Under the pieces are notes generated by a model. That model was given only the letters and a program-made list of their open reading frames with translations, did not search any database and was not told where the DNA came from. From assembly GCA_021234155.1 (NCBI GenBank), contig JAJEKV010000075.1, positions 1,054,001-1,118,000 of the forward strand: a DNA stretch of 64,000 nt. The letters run 5' to 3'. This document shows, piece after piece, positions 3,191 to 43,290 of the stretch. Position 1 is the stretch's first letter, and each line of letters begins with the position of its first letter. Position numbers and translations under genes: made by a program. The stretch is from Isoetes taiwanensis. Taxonomy: Eukaryota; Streptophyta; Lycopodiopsida; Isoetales; Isoetaceae.

Positions 3191-4150
3191 CTGCAAAAGT
3201 TACAAGAGGTGAGTTCCAACCAAAATTTTAGAAGAAACAAGACTCATCGGTAAGTGAATATAAGCTATACCTATGCGCTTGAATGGGGATTGCTATATTT
3301 CGTGCAATTGCCCAGCGTCCAGCAATTCGGAAGGATAGGTTCTATGCATCTCTCTTTTCGAATTTCTCGTGGGAATCTTTCGACGGGGGAAAATTCGAGC
3401 ATTAAAATTAGTTTTGTTTTATTATGGCGAGTTGGTTATTGATTCAATGCAAAAGTCCAAAAAAAAGGGGGCAGCCTAGAGAACTCGGGCAAACCCTTAA
3501 CCAATAGTACTATGCCATGTGGAAAAGATTGAAGAAAATGCCAACTGTACCTGTCAAGGCCTTCAATCTTATTGGTTGCGTATTTTCTTGTCATCAAACC
3601 TATATAGACCTTTTAATACCCCATAAGTTTTCTAATGCAAGAGCTCATTTGGACTTTTCTATCAACAGTTATGCTAGAAAATGTGATCCAGTGAGTTAGT
3701 TATAACTGTTTTGCTGACTGGATTACCAATACTGTTTTCTGATTGGTAGTTCATATAGCTTAGTCAGCAGTTCTTAGAAGGCCCTTTTATGATCTCAAAA
3801 AATCCCTAATGATTATTGCTGCCTTGGGGTAAGGAAAGTTTCTTAGTATACATTCCATAACAAGCATTGGCAGATAAGGATGGCAAATGTGCAAACATCA
3901 ACAATGGATATGAAGTTGTATAATTGAATGCTTACCCAAGATGTGGTTTACATATGAGTCTGTATCCAGGATCATAAGTCCATGCATAATGCCCGCATAT
4001 TGTTTGTTATTATATGTAGCACAATAACAGGACGTTCTAGAGGGATTTGATATGGATATAAAAATTACAATTCATGTAACCATAGACCATATATTCCTAG
4101 AACAATTGAATGGGTTATAAAAAAAAAACATAGATTTAAGATAAAAAAAA
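3191..4150. other. Intergenic, no gene seen
   Basis: Only short frames. At 4008-4028 a 20-bp stretch resembles the left end of the repeat found at 24140 and 39824 (ATATGTAGCACAATAACAGG), possibly a small remnant of that element. Confidence 0.35.
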
Positions 4151-4154
4151 TAAT

Positions 4155-4335
4155 CACATTAGCTCACTGAGTATATTGGTTAGTCTTATTAGGACATTGA
4201 ATTATTTTGGTAGTGGTTCGAGCCCCCGTATTTCATATTCTAAAACCTTAGGCAAAGCCGTATAGAGGTTCGATATTCCCTCAAAACCTTAGGCGAACTC
4301 GTATTTCATATTTCAAAATCATAGGCGCCTTCAAT
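4155..4335 (+). mobile_element. tRNA-derived SINE-like sequence
   Basis: TAGCTCACTGAGT (A-box-like) is followed about 45 bp later by GGTTCGAGCCCCC (B-box-like), the spacing and order of an internal RNA polymerase III promoter in tRNA-derived SINEs. Downstream there are two related blocks with CAAAACCTTAGGC and CGTATTTCATATT. It lies immediately outside the Helitron terminus at 4348. No clover-leaf tRNA fold is evident, so it is not a functional tRNA gene. Confidence 0.4.
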
Positions 4336-21641: not shown

Positions 21642-22530
21642 ATGAACCTTTTTGACCGAGAGCACGAGGAGGAAGATGACATGTCGGCAGAAACCATTAA
21701 TAGGAGATTGGTGCAAATGTGCAATCAGATGGAACAACCAGTGCCATGGGCCACGCCGCTCATGCGTGGCCAAGAGTGTGGACTGATGCCACCTCTACCA
21801 CCTCAGGAACCAGATCATGTAGCTCAACTGGAACAAGAAGAAATTTGAGTGAAAAAGAAAGAGAAGAAGCAGAAGATTCCCAAGCGCTTCTAGCTCCAGC
21901 CCAACCGACAGTATGGACAGCGGATCACACAACAGTTCAAGAAGTAGATCAGACACTTCACAGGGCAGGAACAGGAACTATAGGGCAGGGGATTACCAGA
22001 AGAAAGTCGATAGTGCCATGAGCAACGTATGAAAAACCCGAAAATTAGGGCAATTCTCCAGGAAGGACAGGTCAGGAATGGAGGGTAGAGCATGGTTGAA
22101 TGAAATGGAAGAGTTTGGAACTCATTGGGATGAAGGATAAGGACATAGAAAAAGTGGCAACAACAAATTTGATTGACCCAGCACGAATTGGTAGAAAGGG
22201 TATGCCAAGTCGAACAAGAACAATTGCAGATTCAAAACCTTCAGTAAGGCTTTCCGCAAGCATTATGTCCCAAGATCGCACACAAGCAGACAAATACAGT
22301 AGTTCTATAAGCTGGACTAAGGGAACCTATTAGTGGCCTAATATACAGAGGACTTTATGAGGCTAAGACTAAATGTTCCAAGGATCATGGACAGGCAGGA
22401 TATGGACAGTTATATTGAGGGGTTGAACAACAACATTAAGAGATTGATCTGGGCCATCAACCCGAAAACAGTTGGGGAGGCCAAGGACAAAGCACTAAGC
22501 TTGAAGAAATCATCGCCGACCCCGGGGATG
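21642..22530 (+). pseudogene. Decayed Ty3/gypsy-type gag
   Basis: Reading across three frames gives an acidic start (LFDREHEEEDDMSAETINRR), a Ser/Arg-rich stretch, then gag-like text: GMEGRAWLNEMEEFGTHWDE, FSKAFRKHYVPRS and the terminal part RIMDRQDMDSYIEGLNNNI. The pattern of a capsid core followed by a YIEGL-type helix is that of plant gypsy gag. Several stops and frameshifts; no protease or pol follows, because the sequence changes at 22527 to a UFSP2-like gene fragment. Confidence 0.5.
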
Positions 22531-23655
22531 GACTTGTGAAGCTAGACATTGATCTGTTATGCTTTGAACATTGTGTCTTCTATTTTACAATCTATAACAT
22601 CCAAGATAATACCCTCCCTTTGCCAACACTTAAGAATTATGGCGAAGACTCTTAAGCCTCAGATAACAAGCTATGAATGCCTTTATGCATTTGCCTTCCT
22701 CGGATACTAATTAAGGTGTCTGCATCAGCTTCACGCGTTTCATTTCTGTCCTTGGATTGTTGCATCATGTTACTATCTTCTACAACTCTTCACTATGGTG
22801 AAGCGGAGGCTGGACTTTTTAAGTATTTGTTTCTCATATCATATCAAAACTGTGGTTGTTGCACAGAAATATCTCGTTTATTAAGACCCTTAAAAGGGCT
22901 CCTTCGACATGTTTGATAATGGAAACAAGGAAACGGTTGCATCATAGACTGGAGATGCCAATGGACTGTCCACTTCTTCGCATTGCCAATTCTTTGATAT
23001 TCCACAATCGAGACACGAAGTTAAGCCCTTTTGATGGTAAAATGGACATAGAAGTTCTACCTCTGGGACAGCTAATGATATAGACGTATTCTTCTTCTAA
23101 ATACAGGAAGCAAACATTTGGTTGATGTTCATGTTGGCATCTCTATGTCAGTAGGTCTATTATATGTACGTAGTTGTTGAAAGAACACAAAAGTGGTTTG
23201 TTAACGTTGTTGCTTTGCCAATCAATGGAGGGGAAATAAGCACAATACAAGGATCCTACGAATATTATCATTATCTTCAGAATAGATGTGATGATAATGT
23301 ATACTACTATTGGTTCTAAAAGTTTGTGGTATATTATTGAGAATATATATGATTTTACTAGGGTTGGGGTTATGCATACAGATCATTGCAGACTGTTGTA
23401 TCTTGATTCAAACTTCAAAACCATACAGATCTACCCGTGCCTTCACATCGGTAATTGCATGCTGTTTTTACTAATTGATTTAGGCATTTCTACTGGTCAT
23501 TTAAGTTCACATTGCATGGTTTGTTTTATAGTGAGATTCAATAAATTCTTGTTGACGTTGGAGATAAGGAAGCCTCGTTTGTCAGCTCGCAAGAATGGAT
23601 TGGTGCAATTGAGCTCAATTTTGCCCATGACAAGCTTCTTGTCATATGCATAATT
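22527..23655 (+). pseudogene. UFM1-specific protease (UFSP2-like) gene fragment
   Basis: Successive exon-like blocks on the plus strand match plant UFSP2. KLDIDLLCFEH is at 22540; METRKRLHHRLEMP...PLLRIANSL at 22918-23010; LVDVHVGI near 23120; QGSYEYYHYLQNRCDD at 23240-23290; [27 protein letters not shown] from about 23533, after a TTTATAG acceptor. UFSP2 is the cysteine protease that matures UFM1 and removes it from targets. The block with the catalytic Cys (normally GWGCAYRSLQT right after the DD) is replaced by unrelated sequence, stops are present, and the C-terminal His region is not seen. The first 360 bp recur at 63640-64000. Confidence 0.65.
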
Positions 23656-24138
23656 GTTTAATTGACTTCATTTTGATTATTTATTTCCTTGAAGTGCCAT
23701 TACTATGCATGCTAGAAAGAGCTTTATCCAGGATTTTTAGAATTATAAGAAATTTATCGCATTGGGGTTGTTCACGGTGAGTCCCATGTACATGTACAGG
23801 GAAAGTTAGATCTAGTCTTTGATCTAACCCATTAATATGCAGCTAACCCATTATCTTTGCTTCCTTATGAGCTGGCCTTAAAGAAAATACTTAGTTTTGC
23901 TATAAAACAATTCTAAGCGCTCTTTGGTTGAGTTCGTGGATTTACGAGAATAATGGCGAGGTGAAACTATTTTTGTTGACTTCTTTCTTTAGGAAGCAGT
24001 TGCAGCACCTCATCTGAAGCACAGTTTTCATGGAGTATGTGCATCTGAATGCAATTCTAAGAAATTGTCTTGGACTGCCTGGCTTTATGAATAGCTTGGA
24101 TATGGACCACAAAATGTAACTCAAGAAACTCCAATGAT
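23656..24138. other. No gene recognised
   Basis: Possible introns or 3' flank of the UFSP2-like fragment; no further UFSP2 motif seen. Confidence 0.35.
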
Positions 24139-25294
24139 AATATGTAGCATAATAACAGGGGGTTTCTTTTGTGTTTTTGTACGATATTTACTAAGGTTTT
24201 TCTATGATTTTGTTGCTGTATTCAACTAGGTGTACTAAATAGTATTTCTAGAGTGCTCCATTTTTTAGCCGTTGATTTTTGATGAGAGATAGAATTGTAT
24301 GGCCGTGATTAAATTTATCTATCTGTCACACAGGATGCACCACAATGCTTTTTGATATTTAGGGTTTCTATTGGCCTCCGCTTTCTATCTTTGCGGGTAT
24401 TTACAAGAGAAGGCTCCAGTTTAAATGGCTGGCATTGTTGTTAAGGGAAACAAGATTGAACATGCCGCTGCTGGCTATACAAATTCTCGTGATGGAAAAC
24501 AAGTGGCTGTAATTTTTGGGAAATGTGAGACCCCCTTTCACCACCGCATGATGAGCTTTGAATGGTGGCGGCGTTAGATTGACGGAATTTTGATTTGACA
24601 ATCCTAAAGCTCCGCTTGTAGCTTTTTTCTTTGGAAGGATGTGGGTATGCTACAGCCGAGACTATAATGTTAAAATATATTTCTCTATTTGTGTATAAAT
24701 TAGGTTCGGCAGGGGATAGAACTTTTTCTTTTCATAAACTCCAAAGGCCCCATTCCTAAGAGAGCTTGGCCAAGATTTCTTGTTTACGAGAATCCCCGCT
24801 CTACAAACACAAAATCGAACTAGTTTTTCTCTGTTTTGCTTCAAAATCCACTTTTTAAGCTTCAAGCAGAGACAACCGCACCATTTGTCGATCAAGAAAA
24901 CAGGGGATAAAACATGCTTTTGATGACTGGCGATAGATGGTCAAGAAGATTGGGCAAAAGGCACGAAGCAAGCTTTTTGCAGCTTTTAGGTTTTCTAAAT
25001 CTTCAAGGAGCCACTATCGCTAGATTTCGACTGCTCAGCCTTTATAAGAAAGGCAGTTTGGTCTTTTTCCGCTGCATGTTGGATCTAATGGTAAAGAATG
25101 CGTAAATGGAGGCTCTCCTTTCCTGATTCAATATGCCAGCCCCTGAGGCATAACTCTATAAACAATTGCATTTTCTCGCTTTGGACTTCTGGATGACACT
25201 TATGATGTAATGAAAATGTTGCAGGTTTAGGTGTCGCCTTCAATCACGGCACCAGGGTTCTCGGGCCTGCTCCCGAATCACGACAACAGGTTCA

Positions 25295-25411
25295 ATGCCG
25301 CCTATTGAGCTCTCGGCAATAAAGCTGTTTGGGATATTAGAAAACCGTCATCCAATGACAGAAATTGGTTGGACAATAATGAATGCAGGATTGGTCCAAT
25401 TTGAACAATGA
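25295..25411 (+). pseudogene. Short protein-like remnant, unrecognised
   Basis: A 38-codon frame starting MPPIELSAIKLFGILENR and continuing HPMTEIGWTIMNAGLVQFEQ has the composition of a real globular protein and lies in the variable interior of the element. Further down, EEVVDANLESDSLASHLDGW (about 25770-25840) is another protein-like piece, faintly like a receptor-kinase C terminus. Neither is assigned. Confidence 0.25.
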
Positions 25412-26506
25412 CTAGAATTTACTTTTAGATGTTTGGTCATGCCAAAGTGTGGCTTGTCGAGGAGTTAGCATGGAACAGGGGCCATTGATCCGAGTTTGCT
25501 AGGAACTCCCGGGCGAAATTAAGTACGCCCTATGTACAAAGATCATATAATTCATGGGCCATTTGGCTCGGAAGGTGGAAGTAGGAGTCTATTGGTGCAG
25601 GGGATTTTGACTTGCCTGACCGGAGTGCTTGGGGGCCCCCTGGAGGATTATTCATAGTGTATTTTTGTACATAAAATAAATACATAATTGTTAACTTGGC
25701 TGGTCTTCTTCTTCTTTCGATGGGCAATATAGGTTGTTCAGAAGTGATTGCTAACTAATCTGGCCCGCTGTGGAAGAGGTTGTGGATGCAAATTTGGAAT
25801 CAGATAGCTTAGCTAGTCATTTAGATGGTTGGGATGAGGTATGGTAAAAGATTTTGAAGTCAGTTGATGAGGAGAGTTTGCAGCTGCTTCTATTTTGTCT
25901 AGTAAAAGATTTAAGTGGAGCACAGACTTGTATGGATTTGTTTTTAATCGTCAAAGGAAGGATGGGAGGCTAAATTGTGGAGGATGTGATGAAAATGGAA
26001 ACTTACATTTAGAAGGGCTTTTTCTAGCTCAGCTGCTGCAAATGCAACTCAGGGATTGCTACAGTTGCATATTGGTAAACACAGCATGTTTGGTACTTGA
26101 TTTGCATGAGTGCCATAGCTTTATGTGTTTTAGTGAATATCATATACAATCAGCTTGCTTGCCATCTTACTAAACTGTTCTTCTGCTTTTGGCGCTTTTT
26201 TGAGATCTGGTTTTTTGAGTTTTATCTCATCATTTCCAAAAACTAGGATTTATAAAACAGCAAAGAGCAAGGGTTTGAGAATTCGTCCATTATTGCAGAG
26301 GTGGGAATAACCCGGTTTGTATTCTCTTCACTCCATCTCTTATTTCGTTGTTTAGAGCAGCATCACAGATGTTCTCTACATATACTATATTGGTTATGAA
26401 TGCTTGCCATGGCATTTGAGTTTTTTATTATTCATCCTGAGTTCTTTATTCATTGGTATGATATGACGACTTTTACATTTTCTCTTATTTTTTCTCCCTT
26501 TTGTTA

Positions 26507-27009
26507 GGGCCCGAAGGGCCCAAAAAAAATTTTCATATAACAACCAACATATCATATGACTACCATTAACATTAATTAACACAAACCATTACATTTAACA
26601 ATTTTAAATTAAAACCCCCTTGAAACCCCCTTTGGTTTGGGTGCATATTCACACGGGGGGTGACGTAGGGCAGCGAGAGCACCCGTAAAATCATGTTACA
26701 CATGTACAAAATTAACACCATATGGTACATTGCCTCAAATCTTATAGTATTTCGCAAATTGTGTTATACAGTATATCAAAACTTGTACAGGCATACCCCA
26801 CAAACGAGGATCTCTATGTACGGTCTAGATCGAGGAATAAAGGGCATTTATGCTTATCCAACAGCTCTCGATGCCCGGAGTCACCCCCCGTGTGAATATG
26901 CACCCAAACCAAAGGGGGTTTCAAGGGGGTTTTAATTTAAAATTGTTAAATGTAATGGTTTGTGTTAATTAATGTTAATGGTAGTCATATGATATGTTGG
27001 TTGTTATAT
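26507..27009. repeat. Perfect 130-bp inverted repeat (fold-back)
   Basis: Arms 26535-26664 and 26880-27009 are exact reverse complements over 130 bp as read by eye, with a 215-bp spacer. Outside the left arm is the small palindrome GGGCCCGAAGGGCCC (26507-26521). A transcript would fold into a long perfect hairpin. Related sequence at 42154-42500 has the left arm and spacer only. Confidence 0.9.
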
Positions 27010-27010
27010 G

Positions 27011-29988
27011 TTGGTTGTTGGTTGGTTGGATCAGATAATAATAACGAGCTATAGCAAATTTGGAAGAAAGCTTAGCACAACAACTAGCAACATGTTTTAT
27101 CCTCGTGGGAGCATAATTAATTCTGAAATGGATGACTATAAGTAACATTTGATAATAATGATTCCAAGGCTTGGCAATTGTTCTTCAACAAAGGCGTCAT
27201 CTTTCGTCAGGTATAGGAGGCGATGGCGTTATGTCAATCTTTGTCGTCATCACAAACAACAGATCTACATAGCTCCCCAAAACTGATCTAACATAATTCT
27301 TCCAAACTGCAGCTCCCCAAAATTGGTCTGCTCTAAAATTGGCCGCCCTGTTGCCCAAAATTCCACTATAGAATTCCGCCTAGGATAATAGGATATTCTT
27401 TTGATATTAATATTAATGGAAGATATTAGGTGTTTGAAAAAATTGCATGCACAGTATCACTCAGTATTTGACAAGGTCGGATTGGATAAATTTGACAAGG
27501 TGCTGCCACCTTGTGGCAGCATGTAAGAGCAACTTCACAAGAAAACACAAAAAGATCAAAACACATTTGCAAGACATTTCCATTTGGAGCTCATTGTTTA
27601 GGTATGAAGACAAATCTTTACATCAAAGTTGAAGACCAATGGATAACATTCAAAGAAGCATTCAAGTAGCAAAAGGAAGCAAGACTTGAGTCAAAGGTTG
27701 GAAAAGAAGTCAAAAAGAGAAGACCCCTAGTCAAAGATTGGAAGACCCCCAAAGAAGTATGTTGTCTTACCACCTTTTGAGATTTTCACACTATCTTAGA
27801 GATATTGGCTCAAGAAGACATTGTTCACATCCATACTCATTCTTCATACCCATCCCTCATCTCATTCATCATATTTTCATGGCTCAAAGTCTTTTTCCCT
27901 AGGGCAAAATCTCACACACCACATATTCCATACATATGCACCATGAACATCACACACACACATCATGTTCCATTACCATGCACTTGACAAGTCATTAGAA
28001 GCGCACTCTCTCTCTAAAAAAAAGGAAAAAGAAAGAGGAGAGAAGCTCCACAAGTCTACTACATCACCAATTCAAGGCCAAAGCATGGGTCAAAGATCAA
28101 ATCCCAAAGGCCTAAGTTGACTAGTCGAAAAAAATCAATATCTAGTGCCACCTCACCTTCAAAGATCATGCACACATCATCCACATCATCACCAACTCAC
28201 CTAACATGTGTCACCCACACCTTGTTACACTTCATCGAGATTTTACCTAGGAAAAATTTCTTTGACACCTTGCCTTCCACCTCACCATGCCACATCATCA
28301 GCATTTGCCAAGTCATCACCCATATGCCACATGTCCTTGTACACCATGGAAAAAAGGCCCAAAAATGAAGTTGCTTATTTTCAAAATTTGTTTTTTCCAT
28401 CTGAAAGCCCATGAAAAATCATGCAAAATGGTGGTCAAAGATTCTCATTTTGACCACATCTAGCCCTAGTTATATTGGTTCTTGGGATGCGTGCCCTACC
28501 CTAGTTGTGCTAACATTTGGCTTAAATTACCCCCAAAAATCCATGTCATGTCCCTGCCAACCATGTTCGGCCACGTGGAAATCCGCCGAGCTCATTTTTC
28601 GTCAAATGCCTGTGGGGTATTTCTATTTTCGTGAAGAACCCTAAAATCATGGCAAGATCCGAAATCAGCCCAACCAACCGGGTAAATCATGATTAAACCG
28701 GGCCGGATTTAGCCCTTTGATGCCAAGAATCTACTTCTAAGAATGGTTAAAACTCATTTATTACTGTCAGACAAGAGCAAGGCCACGCTAAAGGGGATTA
28801 TTCGAAAAAGGGGACTTCATTTTGAGGAAGAAATCATGATTACAACACCACAACCGACTGACTTACAGATCAAGAAGGTATTTACAGGCAAAAGAGGCAA
28901 AAACCGATCCGCCTTATCAAGAACCGACCAGAAATTGTCAAATTTAAGAGATCAGTGAGGTTTCAGAAGATTTTCGAGCACCCTAGTGCCTTGAGTGATC
29001 TAATCCAGCATGCTACTTTTGGGAATGACCTCTACTTGCCCTGTACTGCCTCCTTGTGTCAGATTTCTTGAAGATCTGGTGCAATAAAGTCCTTTTTATG
29101 ATTTGAAGATATGTATTACCTTTGCTTCTTTCATTATATGAATTTCTCCGTATCAAATCACTGGGAAATTCTCTCATTGTAATCCTTGAAGGCTCCTTTG
29201 AATGAAAATTTGAAGTTGGTGTAGATTGTGTCTTGCTTTTTTCCTGAAGATCGAATCTTGCTGGTTCTACTTGTGCTGTAGCAGTGCTTGAATCTCAACA
29301 ACAAGAGCCACTGTGGTTTGTATAAGTTCTTTCAACTAAAATCCCAATCTAGAGTGCTTATTCAATATTGCATTGTTAGGTCAGTGACAAATTCCTCAAA
29401 AAAACAAAAAAGGTCTAGTCAAATAGCATTTTACACTAGGTTTCTTTCATCTAATGCATACTCACATCTCTTGTAAGCCAACTCCTTCATTTAAAAGCTA
29501 AAAAGTCGTGTTAGGCCACAATCCAAAGCCTGTTCTTTGATTCTGTTACAGACTGTCACAAAAAATCTATAAAAATGGCATTTGTGTACATCAATGCATA
29601 CTTTCTGTTGTTTCTACATGATGCACGTGTTCTTTAGGTTAGGTTGAAGGTGTCAAAGAAAGAAATCCCAAAAAATTCCTCATAAATTCTCATCTGCAAA
29701 TTTTAGCTCTCTGCCAGGGTTATTGACCAAAAATTGACTCGGTCAGGAAGCCATTATTCACCTAGCTCTGGTCAAGCATTTGCCTCTGACCTTTGCAAGC
29801 ATCTTCTGGATTCCCTTGAGCATCAATTGTAGTTGTTCCCAACAAAAACCAATCATCCAACTTCATTTGGCAAACAGTTTTTGGCAAATAGTTTTTTCTT
29901 GTTCAGGGACAGACTGTTCACAAGCTAGTTTGAGCTGATTTGTGCAGGGATTTGGCCACAGATTGGTTGCCTTAAGCAACTGGAGGTT
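27011..29988 (+). other. Gene-free; probable left part of the gypsy element
   Basis: No supported ORF. The copia element inserted exactly at 29988/43291, so 29988 was once joined to the leader of the gypsy gag at 43374. The gypsy 5' LTR and leader should therefore lie here. I could not fix LTR ends because no matching 3' LTR is recognisable after 49105. Confidence 0.4.
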
Positions 29989-30088
29989 TGTTAGAAAAAT
30001 AGAGACCCTTGTGATTATTATTCTTAGATCAATCAAATATTCAACTTAGAGTCATAGAAGACAAGGTCATAATATAGCTTCAATATAA

Positions 30089-33000
30089 GGGTAAAAGCAT
30101 GCTACGGTGTACCACTTTTGGAACCCTCAAAAGTACCTACACTGGGTACTTTTAAAACTGGTACTTTCTGTTTTCTCTTTCCATTAAAATCAATCGAAAA
30201 TTTTTGAATTGAAGGTCAATAACATGTCAATATATATCAATCAATCAATCAATATATATTGATCATGCCATTTTTTGGGACCCTCAGGTCCATATGGCAA
30301 ACAGTACATTTACATTTACATTTTAGGCGCCAATATGGCACATAAATCATCAAAATATAAATAATCCAGAATTTTCAAGCAGTGTCATGTGATCATATAA
30401 GAGTATGATGTCTGATCTTTCCTTAAAGATAGTCTTCAGATATGATCCCAGCTTGGCCGGTTGCAACTGGAATAAGTCTTGAAGATTATCGGCAGTGATG
30501 GCAAAAGCTTCACGGATATGCTCATAAGATGGACAAAAGAGCAAAGCATGGGCCTCGGCCCTCAATTTGTGGTTCTCACAAGCAGCAGGGACATAGCGGT
30601 CTTTTTCGCCCAATCCTTGCCATCCGCCGCTTTCTATGGCAAGGTGATGGGATGAGAGTCGCTCGGAGATGGTTTTTCTTAAATTAGATGCCGATCCATT
30701 CCCGTGTATGGCTGCTCACCATAGGTGTCAAGATTGTTAATTTCCTTTACAGAGAAGTCCGCTTTGACACTAGTATCACAATCCATCCGAGCTTTGCAAC
30801 CGCTTTTGGCATACAAATGCTTGCAATTCATCCCATTTGTGAGGCCACCGCCGGGCATTATATCCCATTTTCCCCATTTGATTAATGCATTATACCATCC
30901 GCTCATTTTCTCTTGAGGGTGCATAAGTGCTAGAAGCGGGGAGGCGTTCGAGTCAAGATTAGAGATCCCGTCCAAGTAATGTAGCGTTTGACGAGGCGCA
31001 TCAATCTCGATTGGGACTAGTCCCGCTTCGCCAAGAGCATATTATATGGTGTTTGGGCCTTTACTCCCAATTCCTCCAGGAGGAATTTTTTGTATTCTTT
31101 CCAAATTGGCCCACCTGATCTTGCCAATCCAGTGCCTGTGGATGGGCAGCCATAGAGCATTACCGGGTTTAACTAGAACACCAAAAAGCAAAATTGCGAA
31201 ATGCCAACCTTCTAGGTTATTTTGTTCACATACTTGGAGCATGCCAAATAATGCTTTCAGCCCACCTAATGCTCTCCTTGATGCTGCGGTGACCATTTAT
31301 AGTTGGAAGACATTTCAATCCCTAAATATTTATACCGAAAGTGACAAATTTTCCAAAGCAACACCTCCAACCGAGAAATCAGCATGGGAGCCAAACCAAA
31401 GACCATGATTTTAGATTTGGAATGGTTGATAGACATACCTTTATGCTTGCAAAAGCGCCAAAGACATCTAGATGTGATCGCAGACCCAATTGTGTTTTGG
31501 AGATGAGTACAATATCATCAAAAAAAAAGCAGCAACTTCACTACATGGTCATATAAATCAGCACCAATTCCACTACGGTCATTGAGCCAAGATTCTACTT
31601 CATCAATGAACAGCCCAAAGAGTGCCGGGTGAGCAGGGCAGCCTTGTTTAACCCCTATGGTGCTGGAAATCATGGTATCGAGCGTAAAGGGAACGAGAGT
31701 TCCACCAATACCTTATGATATAGGCAAGCAACTGCTTCTTTGAGAGCATGAGGGACCCCAATTGCATCCATCCTGTCTTGAAGCTTGCCTCGATCAACAC
31801 GATCGAATGCCTTTGCAAGGTCCATGAATGCGAGGTATAGTTTGTTCCCCCGCCCCTTAGCATTTTCTGTGAGCACCCGGAGTGTCACTAAGTGATCAAT
31901 AGTAGAGTAACCAGATCTGAAACCAGCTTGGCCTGTTGCAATAACATCTGCATCTTTGGCCCAATCCACTAGCTTTTGCTCAATCAAAGAGGCAAAAGTT
32001 TTAGCCATAATATTACCAACTAGAATTGTCCCAGAAGTTATGTATGTCCCCGCTTATCGCCACATTTATACACTGGGACAGCTCTACTAACATACCAGGT
32101 ATCTGGAAGTCTGCCATGCTTGAGCACCAGGTTAAAGATGTGAGTGAGTTTTTCTAGGAGCAACTCACCTCCCCATTTGCATAATTCAGCCACCATCCCT
32201 AGATTATCTGGGGACTTACCATTTTTCATGCGAGACAAGGCTTCTTGCACATCTGATGGAGTAAAAATAGACTCGATTCTGTGGTAGTTACGTGTCATGG
32301 CTCTTTGAGTCGGAAATGTGTAGAGGCCATTTAGCCAAGAAAATCATCTCTTCTCGCAGCAAAATTAGGACATGGAGAAGGGCTTTTGGTGATGTTCCAA
32401 AGGCCTTCGCTCATCTATCACCCTGTTGGTTAAGTCTTGTTCATGCTTGCGCCGCCATTCATTCTTTTTACCTCGGAAGCTTTTTATAACATTTGCCGGG
32501 CTTGCTGATTATCACCGCCATACCTAGGGCCTGCTTAGCAAGCATGCATTCTTTGTCAAACCACTTTTGATTTTGACGCTTTCTTTTCCGGGCTTAGTAG
32601 TCCCAAAGACTTCGCTTGTTTGCCGCCAAAGATGTTTTTAACCAAAACCCGGTTATAATCAAATGCATCCGCTGGCCAATCGTACATGCTCAAGTCTACT
32701 TGTTAAGGCATCCGTGATATGCACCTCGCATATTTGTAATTGATTTTGATGCTACCGAGGCTTCAAAATCAGCGTAGGGAGCATGTGGTTTATTCACTTT
32801 GAAAGCTATCTTTGAGGGGTGCATGGTCTGAAATAAGTTGCTTCTTAAGAACCCTAAGTCATGGAGCATTGTACAAGTGGGATTACCCAGCAGGAGATCA
32901 ACAACAGAGTCTGCCCAAGCTATTGAAAAGCATGTGTAATTCGAGAGTCCGGAAAGATTTGGATGCCATTGAAGACAATCCATTGTAATGCTCCACATAG

Positions 33001-34627
33001 CTGCAAAGACATGATTTCCCATAGCATTGCTAGTGTGGTCACTAGATATCCGCTTCCAAGGATGCTCGAGTCCAAGGTATTCATGTAGCCAAAGCTCATT
33101 TTTCGCTTTGAAACAAGGGGCCTGTCTCTGTACCCAATCTTGCATTGAAATCCCCTGCCACATAGACCGATCCTTTTGTCCGGTATTTTATAATATCCTT
33201 GGCAAGATGCAAAGCAATGGATCATGAGGATCTAAATCTGGGTGCCGTATACTTTTGCGTGTTTCGGGATCTAAGGGGCAAAGTAGACACAAGCAATATA
33301 GAGGGGCTTTTGTCCATTAATCCGTATCCACAAGTATTGCTTAAAGGGGCAGGTCCAGACAATTTCCACCGAAGCCAAACAGAAGAGCGAACGTAGCACG
33401 CCAATCCTCCCCACCTCTCCGCATGATCCTTTTTATTGTGTAGCGTGGCAAGCTTGGTGAAGTCAAAGATATCAACTAGCGGTCTCATGTCATATTCCCA
33501 TGTTTCCAAGAAAATCGAATGTCATGTTGCTTTGGAGCAGTTTGTGCAAGTTAGAAATTTGGATTCGTTAGCACCGTGGATGTTCCATACTAAGAGTCCG
33601 AGGGTCCCAAGCTTCCTATGCTCGCTTTTCTCTCGACAATAACCTTGTTTCCAAGGATATATCGCGCCTTTCCATCAGCCCCTGTGTCTCTTTACTTCAT
33701 CTAGCAACACTTTTCTATCTTTCTCCATTGTTGTTGAGTTAGATCTTCATTTAACCATATGTTTGTATCCCTTTAGATTTCCTTTGTGTTGCATTGCTCG
33801 GTTTATGTAATTCTCAGTACTTTCGAATTTGACAATGACAGGTCTATGGCGCCCTTCAACTTTCCTACCAACCCCTGCGTGATTGATTCCGTGTTCATGG
33901 AGGAAGAGCTTGTTCTTAAATACGCCATTGATAGTCTCGGATAAATTTTCATCCTTTGTTTCTTCAATGCCGATATTTTGATATTGTTAGCTCTATGTTG
34001 TCTATCCTCCAAATCTAATACTCATTCCCGCCTTTGTCGAAAAAAGATCTCGAGACTTTAGCTTCAATTTGGGTAACAAAATCCCGAGGTTGCTTAGCAA
34101 ATGTAATTCTGTCTAAATCACTCTTGAGCCTAATGATCTCTCGAGGCATCTTGTGCTCTTGCTATTTCCGTAGCTTGATTTTTTTGCTTGTAGTCGTCGG
34201 TTGGTCTCCCCGCAGTCATTCTTCTCGTTCTACTAATTCGACACCAAGCTTTTACCTCGGCTATTTCCTCGCATCGGGAGCTTCATTTGTTCATGGAGTA
34301 GCTCGATATCATCCTGTTGGAGGTTCCCCTTGCCAGGGGTTCCGGTGCCCTTCCGTTTCCCTCCCATCGGGAGGGCCTGCTACGAAAAAGGGCCTTGTGC
34401 CGAAAATGGAGGCGCCTAAAACCTGCGCAATAGGGATCTGCGCATCCTCTATAGTACTAGAGGATAACAATACTATTAGAGACTAATATAAATGAATTAA
34501 CTCTCAAACTTATTATTTATTGCAGCATTTATGCAAGTTCCCAGTACCCAGTGCTGGGTACTTTTCTGGGTAGTTTCGCACTCCCTAAAAAGTACTTTAG
34601 ATGGTACACCCTAGCATGCTTTCACCC
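30089..34627. mobile_element. 4.54-kb TIR element in the copia LTR, TSD ATAA
   Basis: Left end GGGTAAAAGCATGCTACGGT and right end (reverse complement) GGGTGAAAGCATGCTAGGGT pair as terminal inverted repeats of 25 bp with two mismatches. Inside them both sides carry AGTACC...ACTGGGTAC. ATAA at 30085-30088 is repeated at 34628-34631, and the other LTR shows the empty site with one ATAA. No DNA transposase ORF is visible; the interior is a broken LINE. A 4-bp duplication does not fit hAT, CACTA, Mutator or PIF/Harbinger; Sola-type elements have 4 bp, but I cannot assign it. Confidence 0.85.
30300..34480 (-). mobile_element. Broken L1-type LINE inside the TIR element
   Basis: Minus-strand order: ORF1-like piece at 34012-33803 (EDRQHRANNIKIS, the L1 ORF1/transposase-22 start); AP-endonuclease-like pieces at 33509-32696 (WGGLACYVRSSVWLRW); RT at 32298-31640 (KNGKSPDNLGMVAELCKWGG, ATGQAGFRSGYSTIDHL, FMDLAKAFDRVDRG); C-terminal part 31296-30350 ending in a Cys/His block (CENHKLRAEAHALLFC). 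A CAATC/ATTG microsatellite near 30235-30262 may be its 3' tail. Many frameshifts and stops: it was long dead, although it sits inside an LTR that is only slightly diverged from its partner. Confidence 0.75.
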
Positions 34628-35196
34628 ATAACTTCAATAAAACCTTATAAGCGTCGGGCTACTGTAGCAAAGGTCTGAAGAACTAAATGAACAGTAAACT
34701 CAATAATACAATCGAACTTCTCCACCTTTAATTGCCTCCTCAACTCAACATTCGGCCCACAATTCCATCGTATATGCAATGCTTATCTGCAGGGTTATTT
34801 ACAGTGTGCTCACTCGACCGATCCGGCGTCGGTTTAGCTTGATCCGATCAATTTTAGACTGTCAACTTTCCTTCTATGTATTCGCCCATCACCTCTTGCT
34901 TATTCTTCGATCATATTATCACCTTCACTTTAATAATAACATTAATATTTCAACCATTGGAACCTAATTTATAAGTCCCCTTTAACGTAACCATTGCCTT
35001 TCACTTTAACTTGGTCCTGGGTCTCTTTGCATCTTTGCATTATGATCTTAACCATGAAGAGCTGTTCATGCCCTATATCTTGCACTGTGCAGATACTTGG
35101 TGATGACTTATGTGACTATCCAGCATAATGCACTTGCCTCTTTCTCTGAACAGATACATAAGCATGCAGGAATATGTGATGACTAATGATCACATT

Positions 35197-38100
35197 CTAA
35201 CATGCCTCCTTCATCATATATTCCTGTACATTTAAGCTGTCTCTGAAATAAGTGAACTTCCCTTCAACTAAGGCTTTAGTAAAGATGTCTGCAACCTGAT
35301 CATTAGTGTTGATGTACCTCATTTCAATATATTCTTTAGCTGCCAAATCCCTGATAAAGTGCATATTTAACTCAATGTGCTTGGTCCTCTCGTGCTCAAC
35401 TGGATTTTTAACAATGGCTATGCAACTTTGGCTATCAGTCAGAATGATTGTTGGATTAACTTGAGTGCACTTCATCTCTTCAAGCAGTTTTCTAAGCCAA
35501 ATTACTTCCCTTGCCACTAAAGATGCTGCAGCATATTCAGCCTCAGCAGAGGACATAGCTACTGCATTTTGTTTTTTGCATTTCCAGCTAATTACTCCTC
35601 CTCCTAAATAAATTACAAACCCTGATGTGGATCTTCTTGCACTTAGGTCACCTCCCCAGTCTGCATCACTGTATGCAAGAAGATTGAGATCACTAGAATT
35701 AAACATAATACCATGATTTTTTGTGCCCTTAAGATATCTTAATACTCTCTTGGCTGCCAACCAGTGACTTTGACTGGGATTATGGTTTCTTCTACTTAGA
35801 ATGTTCACTATATAAGCAATGTCCGGCCTAGTATTATTTGCAAGGTACAGCAGACATCCTACTAGTGATCTATAAGGGACCTTCTCCATCTCTTCTTTCT
35901 CATATTCTGATAATTCCTGCTCAGCAGTTAATTGGTGACCTGGTACTACAGGGGTTTTAGCAATATTTGCTTCATCTAGGTTAAACCTTTTAAGCATATT
36001 ATCAATATGCCTGCTTTGCTTTAGTTTCAACATCTTCTTTTTTCTATCTCTTTCAACTTCGATTCCCAGGAACTGTTTAAGCTCTCCCAAGTCTGACATT
36101 TGATATCTATGCTTCAGCAGATTTTTGCAATGATTCAAGCATTCCATGCTGCTAGCAGCCATGATACAATCATCAACATACAGGGCTATTATGCAATAAG
36201 CATTGGCATACTGATATTTATACATGTTTCCATCATTCTTAAACTTTTCAAAGCCTTGCTCTCTTAGAAAATTATCAATGCAGAGGTACCATTCCCTTGG
36301 TGACTGTTTCAATCCATAAACTGCCCTGTTTAATTTCCATACCTTATTGATTCCAACTTCAAAACCTGGGGCTTGCCTCATATAGATGTCTTCTTCCAAT
36401 TTAGCATTCAAGAAGGCTGTTTTTACATCCATGTGATGTAATTCCAAGTCTAAGGCATTAGCTAAACTCACTAAGAGTCTTAAACTAGTGAGCTTAACAA
36501 TAGGGGAGTAAATCTCATCATAATCAATTCCTTTTTTCTGTGTAAACCCTTGTGCCACAAGCCTTGCCTTGAACTTTTTACTTCCATCTGCATTATTCTT
36601 CACCTTAAACAACCATTTGCTTCCAATAACATTATGATCAGCAGGGTAATCTACTATAACATAGGTCTGAGTTTGTTTGAAAGATTATAACTCATCTTTC
36701 ATTGCAGCTATCCATTTGTCCTTGTCTCCACAAACAAGAGCGTCCTCAAATCTTTGAGGAGTTTCTACATCTTCCATTATTGCCAAAATCTGATCATTTA
36801 CATCACTTGCTTTTTCCAGTTTCAGTTCTTCCATATTCATTGCTGTCAATTCTGGCCTCTTCAATTCATTTTTCAATTTGAGTCTTTCTTCTTTTCATGA
36901 TCTGCTCATTCTGCTCATGATCCCCTTCCTCATACTCAATTACTGGTCTTTGGTTTGCTGTATTCTCGTGTCTCATGTCATTGTCCTCAGTGATCTGCTC
37001 ATTATCACCATTGGACTCTAAATCAACATCAAAAGTTACTCTTTTGGAACCTTGCACACCATTCACATTTTCTTCTTTTTTTCTTAACCTGTCTTTGTAA
37101 AGAGTCTCCTCATCAAATATCACATCCCTGCTAATAATGATCTGTTTTGTACTTGGAACAAAAAGTCTATAGCCTTTTGATTCACTATCATACCCTACAA
37201 GATAGCCAATTTCAGATTTGTTGTCTAGTTTCTTCCTTAGCTCTGATGGGATATGTGAGTATGCTAAACAACCATAGGCCCTGAGCCAGCTAAAGTCTAT
37301 TTTTCCCTTTGAATTAGACCAAAGGAGCTGAGGTACATTACCTTTTAAGGCAGCAGAAGGCAATTTGTTTTGTATCATAATAGCTGTTTTGAGAGCTTCT
37401 TCCCAGAGATAGTTTGGCAAGCCACTATGCTTGATCATAGCTCTGACTGCATCCATTATGGTCCTATTCTTCCTCTCTGCAACTCCATTCTGCTGAGGAC
37501 TGTACCTGCATGTAAGTTGCCTTTTGATACCATTAGCAATGCAAAAAAGTTTGAATTTGGTTGACAAATATTCCCCTCCTCGATCTGACCTTATACACTT
37601 TACTTTTAGGCCTGTTTCTCTTTCCACCTCTGATACATAGTGTTTCAAAGCAGTCAAAGCCTGAGATTTCCTTTCAAGACAATAGCTTCTACACATTCTA
37701 CTATAATCATCAATAAAAGTTATGAAGTATCTCTTGTTAGATCTGCCTCTCACATTTAGTGGACCACACAAATCAGTGTGGATCAGTTCCAAAGCTTGGC
37801 TTGCTCTCTTTTTAGTTTTCTTGAAAGGTAGCCTATTTAATTTCTCCAACATGCATCCTTCACATATGAATTTTTCTGTTTGCAAGTTTGCACAATCAAT
37901 CCAGCCTTGCTTAGCTAGAACTTTGAGATTATTGCAGTTTGTATGTCCCAACCTATTGTGCCACAATTCAGTTTGAGACATACTAGCAGAATTCACACTA
38001 TCATAACAATGATTTTCCATTTGGAATAAATTACCACATCTTTTTGCAAAAAACTTCAATTCATTGTCAAGGTAGATTCTACATCCTTTTGAGTCAAAAT

Positions 38101-38809
38101 TGACTCTATATCCTAAGTCAACAAGCTGACTTACAGAAATTAAATTCTTGACTATGCAAGGTACACATAAAACATTCTCAACATCTACTATTTTTCCTTC
38201 CAAATCCAGCAACTGTAACAGGCCTTTTCCTTCTATTTGTAACAACTCTCCACTTCCAACTTCAATATTTTTTGAGCTTGCTTTGGAAACGTTCTTGAGC
38301 AAGGTGGATGAATGCACTACTGATCTTTCAGCTCCACTATCAACTACAAGAGCATCAGAGGTTTTCTTAGACTCTATTTTCTCATCTAAAATAGATAATG
38401 CAAGTTTTACCACATTTTCATCTTCACTTTCTGATTTTTCCCTTTCATTATGCTCTCGAGCCATGTGTATTCCTGCTGACCTTCTGCCTCCTCTTCCCCT
38501 GTTTGTGTTTCTTCCAGCTCCACTTTCCTTTCCCTTACCTCTGCCTCTGCCATACTCCTTTGGTGTTGCACATTTAGATGCTATGTGACCCTTGCCTCCA
38601 CAATGATAGCAGACCAGCTCATTTTTAAGCTTAGGACATTCTCCCTTAAAGTGGCCAGATTCGTGGCAATAAAAACAACTTCCCTTTGGTTGTTTAGCTT
38701 TGTTAGCTGTATACAAAATCTCACTTGCATGACCTTCTTCTTGTGCAATTTTTCTCTGCTCAAATTCTGTTCTTAGCACATTTTCTGCATCCTCTCTGTT
38801 CTTACTCAT
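35197..38809 (-). pseudogene. Copia Gag-Pol: zinc knuckles, protease, integrase, RT, RNase H
   Basis: In order: two CCHC knuckles (CFYCHESGHFKGEC, CYHCGGKGHIASKC), protease VVDSGAERSV, the GAG-pre-integrase zinc block (LWHNRLGH ... CEGC), and an integrase with D (LIHTDLCGP), D (IRSDRGGEY) and E (QQNGVAERKNR). Then come RT with KARLVAQGFTQ, VKTAFLNAKL and the catalytic YVDD, and RNase H with SDADWGGD, SSAEAEYAA and TDSQS. Two lesions are visible: a 1-base frameshift near 36880, and a single in-frame TAA at 36685-36687 after AAMKDEL. Otherwise the frame is open, which fits the young LTRs. Catalytic residues are all kept. Confidence 0.93.
35203..35225 (-). promoter_or_regulatory. Polypurine tract of the copia element
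   Basis: GATGAAGGAGGCA lies directly upstream of the 3' LTR on the minus strand, the position of the primer for plus-strand synthesis. Confidence 0.6.
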
Positions 38810-38836
38810 ATTTCTAATAAAGAGAGCTAGATTTTG

Positions 38837-39385
38837 GTTTTTTTTTTTGAAGAACTATGTCAGCAATATATTAAAAGAATGGTAATGTTACAAAGCAAGT
38901 GAGGAGGAAGGAGAACTGCCCCAAAGAGACAGTGATACCTCGACACTCCACAACAACTGCAACTCTACTGCTGTACAAACTGGCCATCACCATCTACCAC
39001 ACCCAAGAAGTCCCGCCAAATGGAAAACTTCCGCTCTACTAATCCCGGGAACACCAAAAAGCTTTGAAATAGCTTGTACCTGAGTCGAGGAATCAGAGAG
39101 GCTGCAGGCTGCTGAATCCCCTGAAAGATCCACAACCGCCGCCGCTTCCAAATCAACCACACCAACCAAGCCACGCACAGATGCAAGGCTTGCTGCCGTA
39201 CGAGCGGCCAAGCACCAGGATATACATGAAGCAGCAATTGTTGGCTATTCAATCTCACCTGAAACAGAGCCCTGACCCAATCCCAGGCAACCTGCAAGTG
39301 AGGGCATAAAACCAGACAATGCTCCACAGTCTCACGATGAAGGCCACAACAAGGGCAAAGAGGGCTCACACCCGGCCCCTGCTCC
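38837..39385 (-). mobile_element. 5'-truncated LINE tail in copia gag
   Basis: The frame 39369-38965 reads CPCCGLHRETVEHCLVLCPHL (zinc knuckle of zf-RVT) and LHLCVAWLVWLIWKRRRLWIF, the end of an L1-type ORF2. The 3' UTR ends in an A-run on the minus strand (T-run near 38838-38850). CTAGC occurs at both junctions and may be a short target duplication. The open frame without stops suggests a recent insertion. Confidence 0.8.
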
Positions 39386-39387
39386 TG

Positions 39388-39822
39388 CTAGGTCAGCTAT
39401 TATATTATCGAATTTATTGAAAAATTCTGATACATCTCCCTCTTCTTGAAGTTTCAGACCTCTCAACTCATTTTCAAGCAAATCTATTTGGGATGAAGTT
39501 TTCTGTTCATAATGCAATAACAGAAAAGACCACATTTCCTTTGGAGACTTATTTCTAAGTTTGAGTCTAATTGTTGGACTCACCTTGCAAGTTATGATTC
39601 CTTGGGTTTCCTTCACTTTGGCATTCACAGACCTTCCTGCTGCACTTGGACCAGCTGTCTCCCTTGCATTTGTTTCACCTGATCCTTCACCTGCATCATT
39701 AGCTCCAGCATTAACAGACCTCTCTGATACAGACCTCTGTGCACTTCTGACAATCCCCATGCTTTCAACAGCTCCTTCAGGATCAACAAGATCCCATAAA
39801 TCCTCTACTTCCAGCACATGCT
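39388..39822 (-). pseudogene. Copia gag, middle part
   Basis: The frame gives KHVLEVEDLWDLVDPEG, then a low-complexity Ala/Gly/Glu insert, then LRNKSPKEMWSFLLLHYEQK and SEFFNKFDNIIADLA. This is the UBN2/gag-polypeptide pattern of copia elements. It is cut on both sides: towards the N terminus by the insertion 39823-42503, and towards the C terminus by a LINE tail at 38837-39385. Some gag sequence after DNIIADLA seems to be lost. Confidence 0.75.
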
Positions 39823-40445
39823 TAATATGTAGCATAATAACAGGGGGTTTTCTTTGTGTTTTTGTACGCTTTTCACAAAGGTTTTCTTAAGATTTCATGG
39901 CGTATTCGAATGGATGTACTAATGCGTATATCTAGAGTGCACCATTTCTTAGTCGTTGGATTTAGCTTTTTTTTTTCAATAGTTCAACATCCAAGGGCTC
40001 ACAACAAAAGCCCTCTTTTTATTTTAGGGCGTGAACATGCAAGCCTTCCGGATAGTGGCAGGAAACAAGGCTTGCAAATCCTTTTTCCCTGTGGGAGCCA
40101 TGGCAATCATCGGGCTATTCCAGTTAGAATTCCAGGAACAGAATGTTTTTGCTCTAAAATTTTGATGACCACGATGTAGCATCTCCTCTTCAGCTCTCGA
40201 TCATATGATTTAGCATCTCCTCTCGATGCTGGCTTCAAGGCGGCCACGATTTCATATGTCCTCTTCATTTCTCGATGATGGCTAAATATGGCGGGCTAGG
40301 CAGCTATGGCTATGGCATGTGGAAGCCTCAGAACAGCAGAGGCATGAAGTATTGAAGCTACATATTTTAGGATTCGCTGGTCGTAGTTTAGGGCTCGCTG
40401 GTTGCTTGTTGTTGCTAGATGTTAGTGTGCCCCGGTTGGACCAAA

Positions 40446-41015
40446 TCAAAGACCTGTTGCTGGTTGCTGGTTGTTGCAGTGGTAACTAGGGCCGGGTCCA
40501 GCCAAGCTGAAATTCCAAGGGGGGATGACAGTGGTGTTGGCGGTGCCTGCAAGCCTGATCTTGAGCTCAAAATTAGCCATCGAATTCTCCACATCCCGCG
40601 ACCGCATTATACAAAGACTCCACTTACGCGGCAATTTGCGGTTTTCAAACCATCCGAGCATCCTGCGGTAAGATCGACAATCTCAGGGTCGCGCTTGCAT
40701 GAGTGCGGAATTATTCCTGTGAATTCTGAACAATCCCCTTGCATGGTGGCTTGGGCGCCCATCATCTCCCATATTATTTCAAATCCTTGCCAGTTCCACC
40801 CCAGCTTCCATCCCGGAGCTTGTATGTGCCTGTACTGCTGGTAGTCGATTAGTCTCACCATAGCCTGCATCACAACCGATTTCTCGTTTATTTCTCAGAA
40901 CTTTAACCAATTTCTATAGCAGAACGAAGATCTCCAGCTTGCCTTGTATCCATCAGTTGTCCAACTCATTATATCCCATGTCACAGTGATATTTCCTGTT
41001 GCGAAATCCATCTAG
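40446..41015 (-). pseudogene. COBRA-like (COBL) gene fragment
   Basis: Three consecutive pieces match plant COBRA-family proteins, GPI-anchored cell-wall proteins that guide cellulose deposition. TGNITVTWDIMSWTTDGYK is at about 41010-40945. QQYRHIQAPGWKLGWNW with MMGAQATMQGDCSEF and CKRDPEIVDL is at 40850-40670. FELKIRLAGTANTT and NFSLAGPGPSYHC are at 40570-40480. The family pattern is TGNI...WDVMSWTPDGYVA, QQYRHI..PGW.LGW.W, GAQ.TEQGDCS, NF.L.GPGPGYTC. An intron-like gap after GYK shows a genomic rather than mRNA origin. A frameshift near 40640 and missing ends make it a fragment. Confidence 0.85.
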
Positions 41016-42153
41016 GCTATGCTGAAGCACGGATTTTGTAGGTGTATCAGAGCATTAAAGCATGAAATAGGTTAGCCCCCCATTTGTTTCTGTCTTTCTT
41101 TCTTTCTTGCAAAGAGTTCTACGATTCACACAGACGGAGGAACGTAGAAGAAAGATCCCTCTTTGGCCATGGTTTTATTTGAAGCTCTGAATTTCCATTC
41201 CCAAGCTAAATCGTCAACTGGCTGATGTGCATTCAGAAATTACTTGGCCTAATTCATTGGCTCATTTGCAGGTTTCCCACTAACAGTCTGCACCAGTAAC
41301 TGATGGGAACTCAATTGCAGCCCCTTGCGCTCGTCATTCACTAGGTTAGCTTAGCTTTATCGAGAGCGTTATCTTCCTTTTTTTTCTTTCGTGTTGATAT
41401 CTTGTAAAAGCTTGCTTCTTTCCTTTCTCCATAATTATTGCAGCCAGAAACCCGAATTAGAAGCAGAAGCATAACTCCATTGCTTCGTAATGCAGATAGA
41501 AGCATTGATTGCAGTTGGTGACTGTAAACCAGAGCACCTATTCAGTTTCATGACTGGGCATGAACAAAATTTGGCATGATTTATAAACACGGCAGCCCCT
41601 TTTTATAGGTTGTGGCACAGAATTGCAGCCGTATTGCATTTGAGCTTCTAAAATTTGAAGCTTTGTTGTTGAAAGCAAATGCAAGAAATGTGCATTTCTG
41701 TTTTTTGTTATTCTTGAACTATCATTCCTTTGCTTGTAAATTGCGTGGCTTTATATTGGCCTTTGCACAATGTAGCCTCTATAAGATTTAATGCTCCATT
41801 CTCCATTTTATTTAGAAGCACTATAAATTGAGTCATTTATGTACCAATGATCGAATGGGTTTATTGCTTGATGTTACTCGAAGTTCTTTGTCTATGGTGT
41901 TCTTTGCAGTTAGATTCACATGTCACATCCTGCAATGTGAGTGGCTTGGGTTGTCCAAGGTGTTCTCATGGCTTGCATAACAAAATATTCCCTCTTTTTA
42001 ATTCCATGGTACATGTTTCTAGATTGCTACATATAGTTGCAGGAGTTAGACTGCTATACATTGTTGCAACACAGATTATTTCATGCTTCTAGAAAGAAGA
42101 TCATAGGAGTTTTGCATGTTTTTGCATATTTTTACGTACGTTTGTTTTTTTTA

Positions 42154-42503
42154 GGGCCCGAAGGGCCCAAAATTTTTTTTAGTATAACAACCAACACATA
42201 ATTATCATTAACATTAATTAACACAACCATTGGGTCCAACACATTTAAATTAAAATCCCCCTTAAACCCCCTTTGGTTTGGGTGCATATTCACACGGGGG
42301 ACGTGTGAGGGCAAATGAGCCAGCCCTTATAATTATATTTTGCACGTACAAAATCAACACCATATAGTATTTTGCTTGAAATCTTATAGTATTTTGCATA
42401 TCTTGTTATACAGTATAGCAATTTTTGTACTTGCATACCCCACAAACGAGGAACTTTACGTACGGTGTAGATTAAGGAATAAGGGGTGGATATGCCTATC
42501 CTT
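42154..42503 (+). repeat. Fold-back family member without its right arm
   Basis: Begins with the same palindrome GGGCCCGAAGGGCCC (42154-42168) and follows 26507-26880 through the arm (...GGTTTGGGTGCATATTCACA) and the spacer (CATACCCCACAAACGAGGA), with many substitutions. The second arm is absent. Confidence 0.8.
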
Positions 42504-42578
42504 CCATATCTGGAATCCTGGACCTCCCTGATACACCTCTACTGTAGCAAGCAAACTTGCTCCAAATCTGCTAGACAT
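42504..42578 (-). pseudogene. Copia gag, N-terminal codons
   Basis: ATG at 42578, 29 bases after the primer site, opens MSSRFGASLLATVEVYQGG and continues PGFQIWKD, the usual copia gag start ending in a Trp-Lys motif. The frame then runs into the inserted element. Removing 39829-42503 with one copy of ATATG would rejoin it to KHVLEVEDLW in frame. Confidence 0.7.
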
Positions 42579-42606
42579 TGCAACAAATTTTATCTGCAAT
42601 CAACCT

Positions 42607-42619
42607 GCTCTGATACCAA
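42607..42619 (-). promoter_or_regulatory. Primer-binding site, tRNA-iMet type
   Basis: Immediately after the 5' LTR (one spacer base) the minus strand reads TGGTATCAGAGC, the standard plant LTR-retrotransposon site that pairs with the 3' end of initiator tRNA-Met and primes minus-strand DNA synthesis. Confidence 0.95.
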
Positions 42620-43290
42620 TGTTAGAAAACTAGAGACCCTTGTGATTATTATTCTTAGATCAATCAAATATTCAACTTAGAGTCATAGAAGACAAGGTCA
42701 TAATATAGCTTCAATATAACTTCAATAAAACCTTATAAACGTCGGGCTACTGTAGCAAAGGTCTGAAGAACTAAATGAACAGTAAACTCAATAATACAAT
42801 CGAACTTCTCCACCTTTAATTGCCTCCTCAACTCAACATTCGGCCCACAATTCCATCGTATATGCAATGCTTATCTGCGGGGTTATTTACAGTGTGCTCA
42901 CTCGACCGATCCGGCGTCGGTTTAGCTTGATCCGATCAATTTTAGACTGTCAACTTTCCTTCTATGTATTCGCCCATCACCTCTTGCTTATTCTTCGATC
43001 ATATTATCACCTTCACTTTAATAATAACATTAATATTTCAACCATTGGAACCTAATTTATAAGTCCCCTTTAACGTAACCATTGCCTTTCACTTTAACTT
43101 GGTCCTGGGTTTCTTTGCATCTTTGCATTATGATCTTAACCATGAAGAGCTGTTCATGCCCTATATCTTGCACTGTGCAGATACTTGGTGATGACTTATG
43201 TGACTATCCAGCATAATGCACTTGCCTCTTTCTCTGAACAGATACATAAGCATGCAGGAATATGTGATGACTAATGATCACATTCTAACA
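42620..43290 (-). repeat. Copia 5' LTR, intact, 671 bp
   Basis: Starts TTCTAACA-side at 43290 and ends at 42620 on the minus strand with terminal TGTTAG/CTAACA. By eye it differs from the other LTR at only about four positions. Confidence 0.95.

Follow-up and report, generated by a model that had tools for sequence, protein, structure and literature searches.

What kind of mobile element carries the same two ends around unrelated interiors? The question is raised by a stretch of 64,000 nucleotides of the Isoetes taiwanensis genome (assembly GCA_021234155.1, contig JAJEKV010000075.1, positions 1,054,001 to 1,118,000; the window hereafter), in which two segments, here called copy A and copy B, had been proposed from their letters alone to be gene-capturing, non-autonomous transposons of a possibly new class. 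A BLASTN comparison of the two regions concerned (24001-27200 against 39701-42700) bore out both the common ends, in the same orientation, and the unlike interiors: the left ends match with 82.4% identity over 142 columns (24138-24278 and 39823-39963), the right ends with 81.2% over 351 columns (26499-26844 and 42146-42486), and no match between the interiors was found at an E value of 1e-3. Here we report that the two copies belong to a high-copy, non-autonomous, gene-capturing transposon family, the unusual part of which is a self-copied, invertible hairpin at the right end. We consider it rather probable that the family moves as single-stranded DNA by a Helitron-like rolling-circle process with a self-primed, flip-flop 3' hairpin. 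Feature coordinates are collected in Table 1.

The whole assembly (1,658,258,908 bases in 1,110 contigs) was searched with motifs taken from the ends. The left-end 27-mer occurs at 7,673 + 7,603 = 15,276 places with up to 3 mismatches, the 26-mer of the loop end at 2,620 + 2,596 and the start motif of the second hairpin arm (arm 2) at 3,120 + 3,132, all of these being places rather than proven elements; the backward control gave none in each case. Pairing was examined with the first 100 listed places per motif, the loops being 92 of these, on contigs C1-C146. For the first 100 exact left ends listed genome-wide, the exact loop motif lay within 6 kb downstream in 30, against four pairs upstream. 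Since left end and loop are linked downstream across the genome, the ends shared by A and B are not a matter of chance; two unrelated repeats that happened to be neighbours twice, the case named beforehand as fatal to the original prediction, are ruled out for the copies that could be paired, although the comparison is a partial one. In the other 70 the exact loop motif was missing over this distance, and two of the 30 downstream pairs, on C57 (4.4 kb) and C122 (4.6 kb), are doubtful. The latter was considered as an autonomous copy and rejected, as on reading it contains two right ends; a larger pair, spanning 6.2 kb, lies on C22. Copies stand tail to head at five loci (L020, L021, L028, L031 and L064), the left end of the second lying within the right end of the first or immediately after it.

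The right end of copy A is a hairpin, since its arm 2 is an inverted copy of arm 1 (97.3%) on the far side of a loop some 180 bases long. The folding energy of the strand is -188.2 kcal/mol, the average of 100 shuffles being -53.4. Copy B has arm 1 and the loop and stops at TATCC. The point at which arm 2 ends was sought in 30 right ends (L010-L038 plus A). In 16 of them the stop is 90-109 bases beyond the anchor, close to the position that faces the palindrome preceding arm 1; five others stop earlier or are interrupted, two (L013, L015) are cut short by the parsing or a small insertion, and seven have no anchor. Several right ends bear short repeated additions. An extra GTGTGAATATG finishes those of L025, L027 and L034, which looks like the result of backward slippage of the nascent strand on its template.

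Arm 2 follows the arm 1 of its own copy. Over the 20 of 31 right ends used for this test (nine without anchor and two shortened ones were left out), the identity of arm 2 to its own arm 1 was 0.979, against 0.929 to the arms of other copies, and none of 20,000 permutations gave a value as high. The own arm was best or tied in 18 of the 20 copies. Arm 1 departs from the majority in 60 cases, 40 of which are repeated in the arm 2 of the same copy. Copies within a subfamily are nearly identical. Beside the loop, many of the copies shown carry a mismatch stretch, GTA against GGA; here own arms scored 0.493 and others' arms 0.494, in a test that included arms cut short.

The loop occurs in both orientations. 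It stands on the strand of the left end in 21 of the 30 left end-loop pairs and on the opposite strand in nine; an overlapping list of pairs with the arm 2 start divides in the same way into 12 and six (n = 18). The distances from the left end (1,261-1,537 bases in 15 of the 21 uninverted pairs, 1,156-1,256 in six of the nine inverted ones) fit a loop turned in place. In L019, L029, L032 and L093 the mismatch stretch was read as turned together with the loop. Three of these loci (L019, L029 and L032) run into other interiors, and arm 2 was therefore considered as part of a second element lying tail to tail; the succession of palindrome, mismatch stretch and loop is instead that of a copy whose loop is inverted. 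The three inverted cases among the 30 loci L009-L038 should not be taken as a rate, since the motif used to find these loci was biased toward uninverted loops.

At the left, the base before ATAT... is A in all 44 distinct junctions, with a slight bias toward A from a second search motif that began TAATATG, and no other position is fixed among 30. An element-free homologue was available for seven of 43 junctions, and in six of the seven the host continues with A; at L028 it does so in four of six homologues. TATG is thus the start of the element, and the host base before it is A, in most cases as part of AA. Empty sites, the comparison suggested with the original prediction, defined the termini of both window copies to within a few bases at each boundary. 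The limits first proposed, 24140-27010 and 39823-42503, shift slightly to those of Table 1, copy A extending past the part that it shares with B. In five copies of the copia-type host without the element, CTT-AAT-GGAG-TCC-TTCC stands where copy B gives CTT-[element]-TTCC; the overlap is 3 bases at either junction, 4-10 target bases are missing and none is duplicated. Similarly, GAT-AAAAA-TGGATC in five paralogues without the element corresponds to GATAA-[element]-TGGATC at copy A, with no target duplication and 3-5 A lost; the A-run of these paralogues varies from 4 to 5, and one of them comes from the second copy of a duplicated stretch of this contig.

The same left end precedes many different sequences. 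About 1.5 kb from each of 38 left-end loci, 30 right-end loci and the two window copies were compared. Sequences sharing at least 450 bp form seven groups (20, 10, 6, 6, 2, 2 and 2) and 22 others stand alone, in a set of best-scoring matches rather than a random sample, in which some places are counted twice (the window copies are also loci, and some copies are present by both ends) and short or inverted copies include some flank. A Pfam scan of 20 translated pieces gave matches for seven and none for 13. The COBRA-like pieces recognized at the outset in one interior were confirmed as PF04833 and placed in copy B, on the minus strand: the piece at 40610-40894 has an E value of 3.8e-27, while that at 40446-40679 (E 2e-5, 25 bits) falls under the curated cut-off of 27. 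Both are bracketed by both element ends. A 78-bp intron-like insert has been kept in the COBRA piece, the exon limits being judged by eye, and suggests that the gene was captured as DNA. Three open reading frames scanned in copy A had no Pfam match. Elsewhere, zf-TRAF (L065) and ANTH (L064) pieces are found 1.0-1.6 kb from a left end, on its inner side and without an intervening right end, and an EF-hand piece (L012) lies inward of a right end; these pieces are likely to be inside the element, with the opposite end beyond the sequence examined. Two matches were not counted as captured: the gag match, which belongs to the host copia, and a zf-RVT match in L032, which is outside its element because the loop there is inverted. 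Nor was a resemblance of L086 1-945 to part of a poly(A) polymerase gene, judged by eye, taken into account. Like ends with unlike interiors, gene pieces, end linkage across the genome and empty sites together support the original prediction of a gene-capturing, non-autonomous transposon.

How such an element might move is suggested by Helraiser, a Helitron system in which, as reported (PMC4778049), the left end is joined precisely to A and the right end becomes loose once the 3' hairpin or the right end is removed. Because the junctions described here resemble those of Helraiser without its 3' hairpin or right end, we propose that a rolling-circle-like transfer has its 5' end at the left and its free 3' end at the right. 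An HUH-type Rep enzyme would cut the left end and join it to a host A. The freed strand would then fold back at its 3' end, whose last bases would prime synthesis on arm 1; the polymerase would stop or slip near the palindrome; and host repair would join the loose 3' end to the target. The loop may be turned by opening and recopying of the hairpin, or by exchange within the stem. We also count in favour of this reading the abundance of Helitron-type Rep genes in the genome (1,813 first-look candidates, of which 150 were scored and listed, all over the Pfam cut-off).

Several results weigh against the rolling-circle reading. Among the arm 1 departures, 20 of 60 are not shared by the own arm 2, the departures are not independent events because the copies are related, and gene conversion between the arms could have produced their agreement instead. 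In L094 the loop is turned and the mismatch stretch is not, so that the stem can evidently be the site of inversion at more than one point. L031 breaks the rule of a host A, and at L090 a related left end in the other orientation stands, as judged by eye, at CA|T rather than AA. Target bases were lost at both resolved sites, unlike at those of canonical Helitrons, and the 5' TC and 3' CTRR of canonical Helitrons are absent, the left end being TATG and the right ends variable. Finally, no Rep-encoding partner with these ends was found among nine Helitron loci with limited flanks, one of which had about 7-8 kb per side. A Helitron bearing these ends was looked for in L069-L077, L084 and L085 and not found; short matches resembling chance, such as 15 bases with E 0.011 in L085, were dismissed, the latter on reading of the stretch. 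We do not assign the family to the Helitrons, because it lacks their canonical termini and an autonomous partner did not turn up.

A precise left end beside host AA and a variable opposite end would also fit target-primed reverse transcription with 5' variation. In this scheme, a retroposon read backwards, a minus-strand RNA would be primed at its 3' end (our left end) by host ...AA; the complementary DNA (cDNA) would extend as far as the 5' end of the RNA and then be copied on itself by fold-back, which would make the right end variable. Such snap-back at the ends of cDNA is a familiar phenomenon. The COBRA piece would be sense in such an RNA, yet it keeps the intron-like insert; moreover, the left end has no poly(A) or simple tail and no target duplication was seen at the two sites, so that we regard a retroposon as quite unlikely. 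A separate rolling-hairpin system, unrelated to Helitrons, would have a Rep-type enzyme nick near the base of the hairpin, with opening and recopying inverting it in each round as in parvoviruses. Parvovirus telomeres are self-priming 3' hairpins that occur as flip and flop and contain a mismatch bubble, and the loop in both orientations, the arms that follow each other and the mismatch stretch preserved beside the loop all recall them. The hairpin is, however, confined to one end, exchange between inverted-repeat arms could also invert the loop, and loop and mismatch stretch were not turned together in L094; such an independent system appears improbable to us. It is a very remote prospect that the family consists of cut-and-paste elements with degenerate ends, Pack-MULE-like or foldback, for all that gene pieces lie between conserved ends and a long inverted repeat is present: that repeat is at one end only, the left end and arm 1 of A and B are not significantly inverted repeats of each other, and neither resolved site shows a target duplication.

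By its termini the family is not a canonical Helitron. Nor does it agree with the insertion of canonical Helitrons at A/T without target change, the next host base being mostly A and bases being lost, or with their short hairpin 10-12 bases from the 3' end, the arms of copy A being about 147 bp long. The prediction that the ends follow neither the TC...CTRR nor the TG...CA rule was right as far as tested. Long terminal repeat (LTR) retrotransposons have direct terminal repeats and a target duplication; in the self-comparison of the window the left and right ends do not match, and no duplication was found. Pack-MULEs have long terminal inverted repeats at both ends and a 9-bp target duplication, whereas the present elements have a long inverted repeat at one end only and no duplication at the two resolved sites. 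Agrobacterium transfer DNA (T-DNA) has a protected 5' end that is joined precisely and a 3' end that is joined loosely, with small target losses. T-DNA and parvoviruses serve here as analogies of mechanism only, and no homology to either is claimed.

Three groups of elements come closer. Helraiser Helitrons (PMC4778049) share the precise left end at a host A, the lack of target duplication and the gene capture, and, when deprived of the 3' hairpin or right end, the loose 3' ends with short overlaps. For this reason the supposition that the class may be new could not be established. Helraiser differs in its 3' hairpin of 19 bp, against about 150 bp per arm here, copied from its own template and present in both orientations, and in that our elements lack the 5' TC and 3' CTRR and lose target bases. 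Helitron2, Helentron and HINE elements (PMC5148889, PMC4067079) likewise have non-canonical ends, hairpins, a preference for AA/TT and no target duplication, and some FoHeli hairpins have a GAA loop (PMC5148889, PMC4067079); their inverted repeat lies 20-60 bases from the 3' end, that of the present family about 350. AA stands at six of seven usable junctions, which may correspond to the Helentron-type insertion in TT (AA on the other strand), with L031 and L090 (CA|T) as exceptions; no target duplication is seen, but target bases are lost. The inverted repeat between left end and arm 1 amounts to 20 of 27 bases in A and B, and 117-303 of 2,000 shuffles were as good; it is better in the related end of L031, where 0 and 2 of 2,000 shuffles were as good. 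Replitrons are said to occur in lycophytes and are short elements (PMC10741241); their target duplications of 2-8 bp and short direct terminal repeats were not seen here, the former at the two resolved sites. The main text of the genome paper (PMC8566536) does not contain the word Helitron. No description of a self-copied hairpin end was found in the literature searched, which left out most subscription papers.

It is not yet settled in the field how transfer terminates in rolling-circle transposons or how they capture genes. In the present family, with its thousands of copies, traces of the last round of synthesis seem to be preserved at the 3' end itself, in the copying of the arm, the stop point and the orientation of the loop, and the last synthesis step would therefore be readable from genome sequence. 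A connection between plant transposons and rolling-hairpin replication would follow if a replication intermediate ends in this hairpin. The family also gives rise to exon shuffling, which has seldom been studied in this plant lineage. A bolder view, which we put forward tentatively and think rather unlikely, is that it represents a new kind of eukaryotic transposon with rolling-hairpin replication, which has a parvovirus-like, self-priming, flip-flop 3' telomere with a kept mismatch stretch and a 5' end that a Rep-type enzyme joins precisely, has its left end at about 15,000 places and shuffles gene pieces.

Table 1. Features of copies A and B in the window (positions are those of the window).
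Feature	Position	Strand	Basis
Copy A, whole element between junctions	24141..27026	+	left end; five paralogues without element
Conserved left end of A (TATGTAGCATAATAACAGGGGG...)	24141..24278	+	BLASTN; genome-wide left-end matches; junctions
GGGCCC-GAA-GGGCCC palindrome before arm 1 of A	26507..26521	+	
Arm 1, right-end hairpin of A	26534..26680	+	inverted repeat, 97.3% over 147 bp; fold
Loop of A, with loop-proximal mismatch stretch at its edges	26681..26863	+	self-comparison; fold
Arm 2 of A, inverted copy of arm 1; short repeated additions then reach 27026	26864..27010	-	
Copy B, whole element; right end stops after loop, no arm 2	39826..42501	+	BLASTN; empty site in five copia-type copies
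Conserved left end of B	39826..39963	+	BLASTN; genome-wide left-end matches; junctions
Captured COBRA-like coding pieces in B	40446..40894	-	PF04833
78-bp intron-like insert kept in COBRA piece	40865..40942	-	in-frame stop, AG acceptor
GGGCCC-GAA-GGGCCC palindrome before arm 1 of B	42154..42168	+	
Arm 1 and loop of B	42183..42501	+	BLASTN; empty site

An Rfam scan of 24000-42600 gave no match. Copy B interrupts a copia-type element (34628-43290, minus strand) that is itself young, the insertion lying in its gag (PF14223, 39335-39886). The repeats of this host (34628-35202 and 42716-43290) are 99.5% identical over 575 bp, and copy B is therefore young as well. At 4009-4300 of the window, a diverged sequence carries the same left-end motif (TATGTAGCACAATAACAGG...) and is related to the sequence that follows the right ends of L022, L030 and L031; it is perhaps another family with the same terminus. 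Its end has no matching inverted repeat, and a tRNA-like head, considered because of stretches resembling tRNA boxes by eye, was given up as ARAGORN finds no tRNA there. The right flank of copy A recurs about 38.6 kb further on with 98% identity (G000:C1084:1119686-1119886), the element being absent there, and 22529-22889 is duplicated on the contig at 63640-64000 with 95.8% identity.

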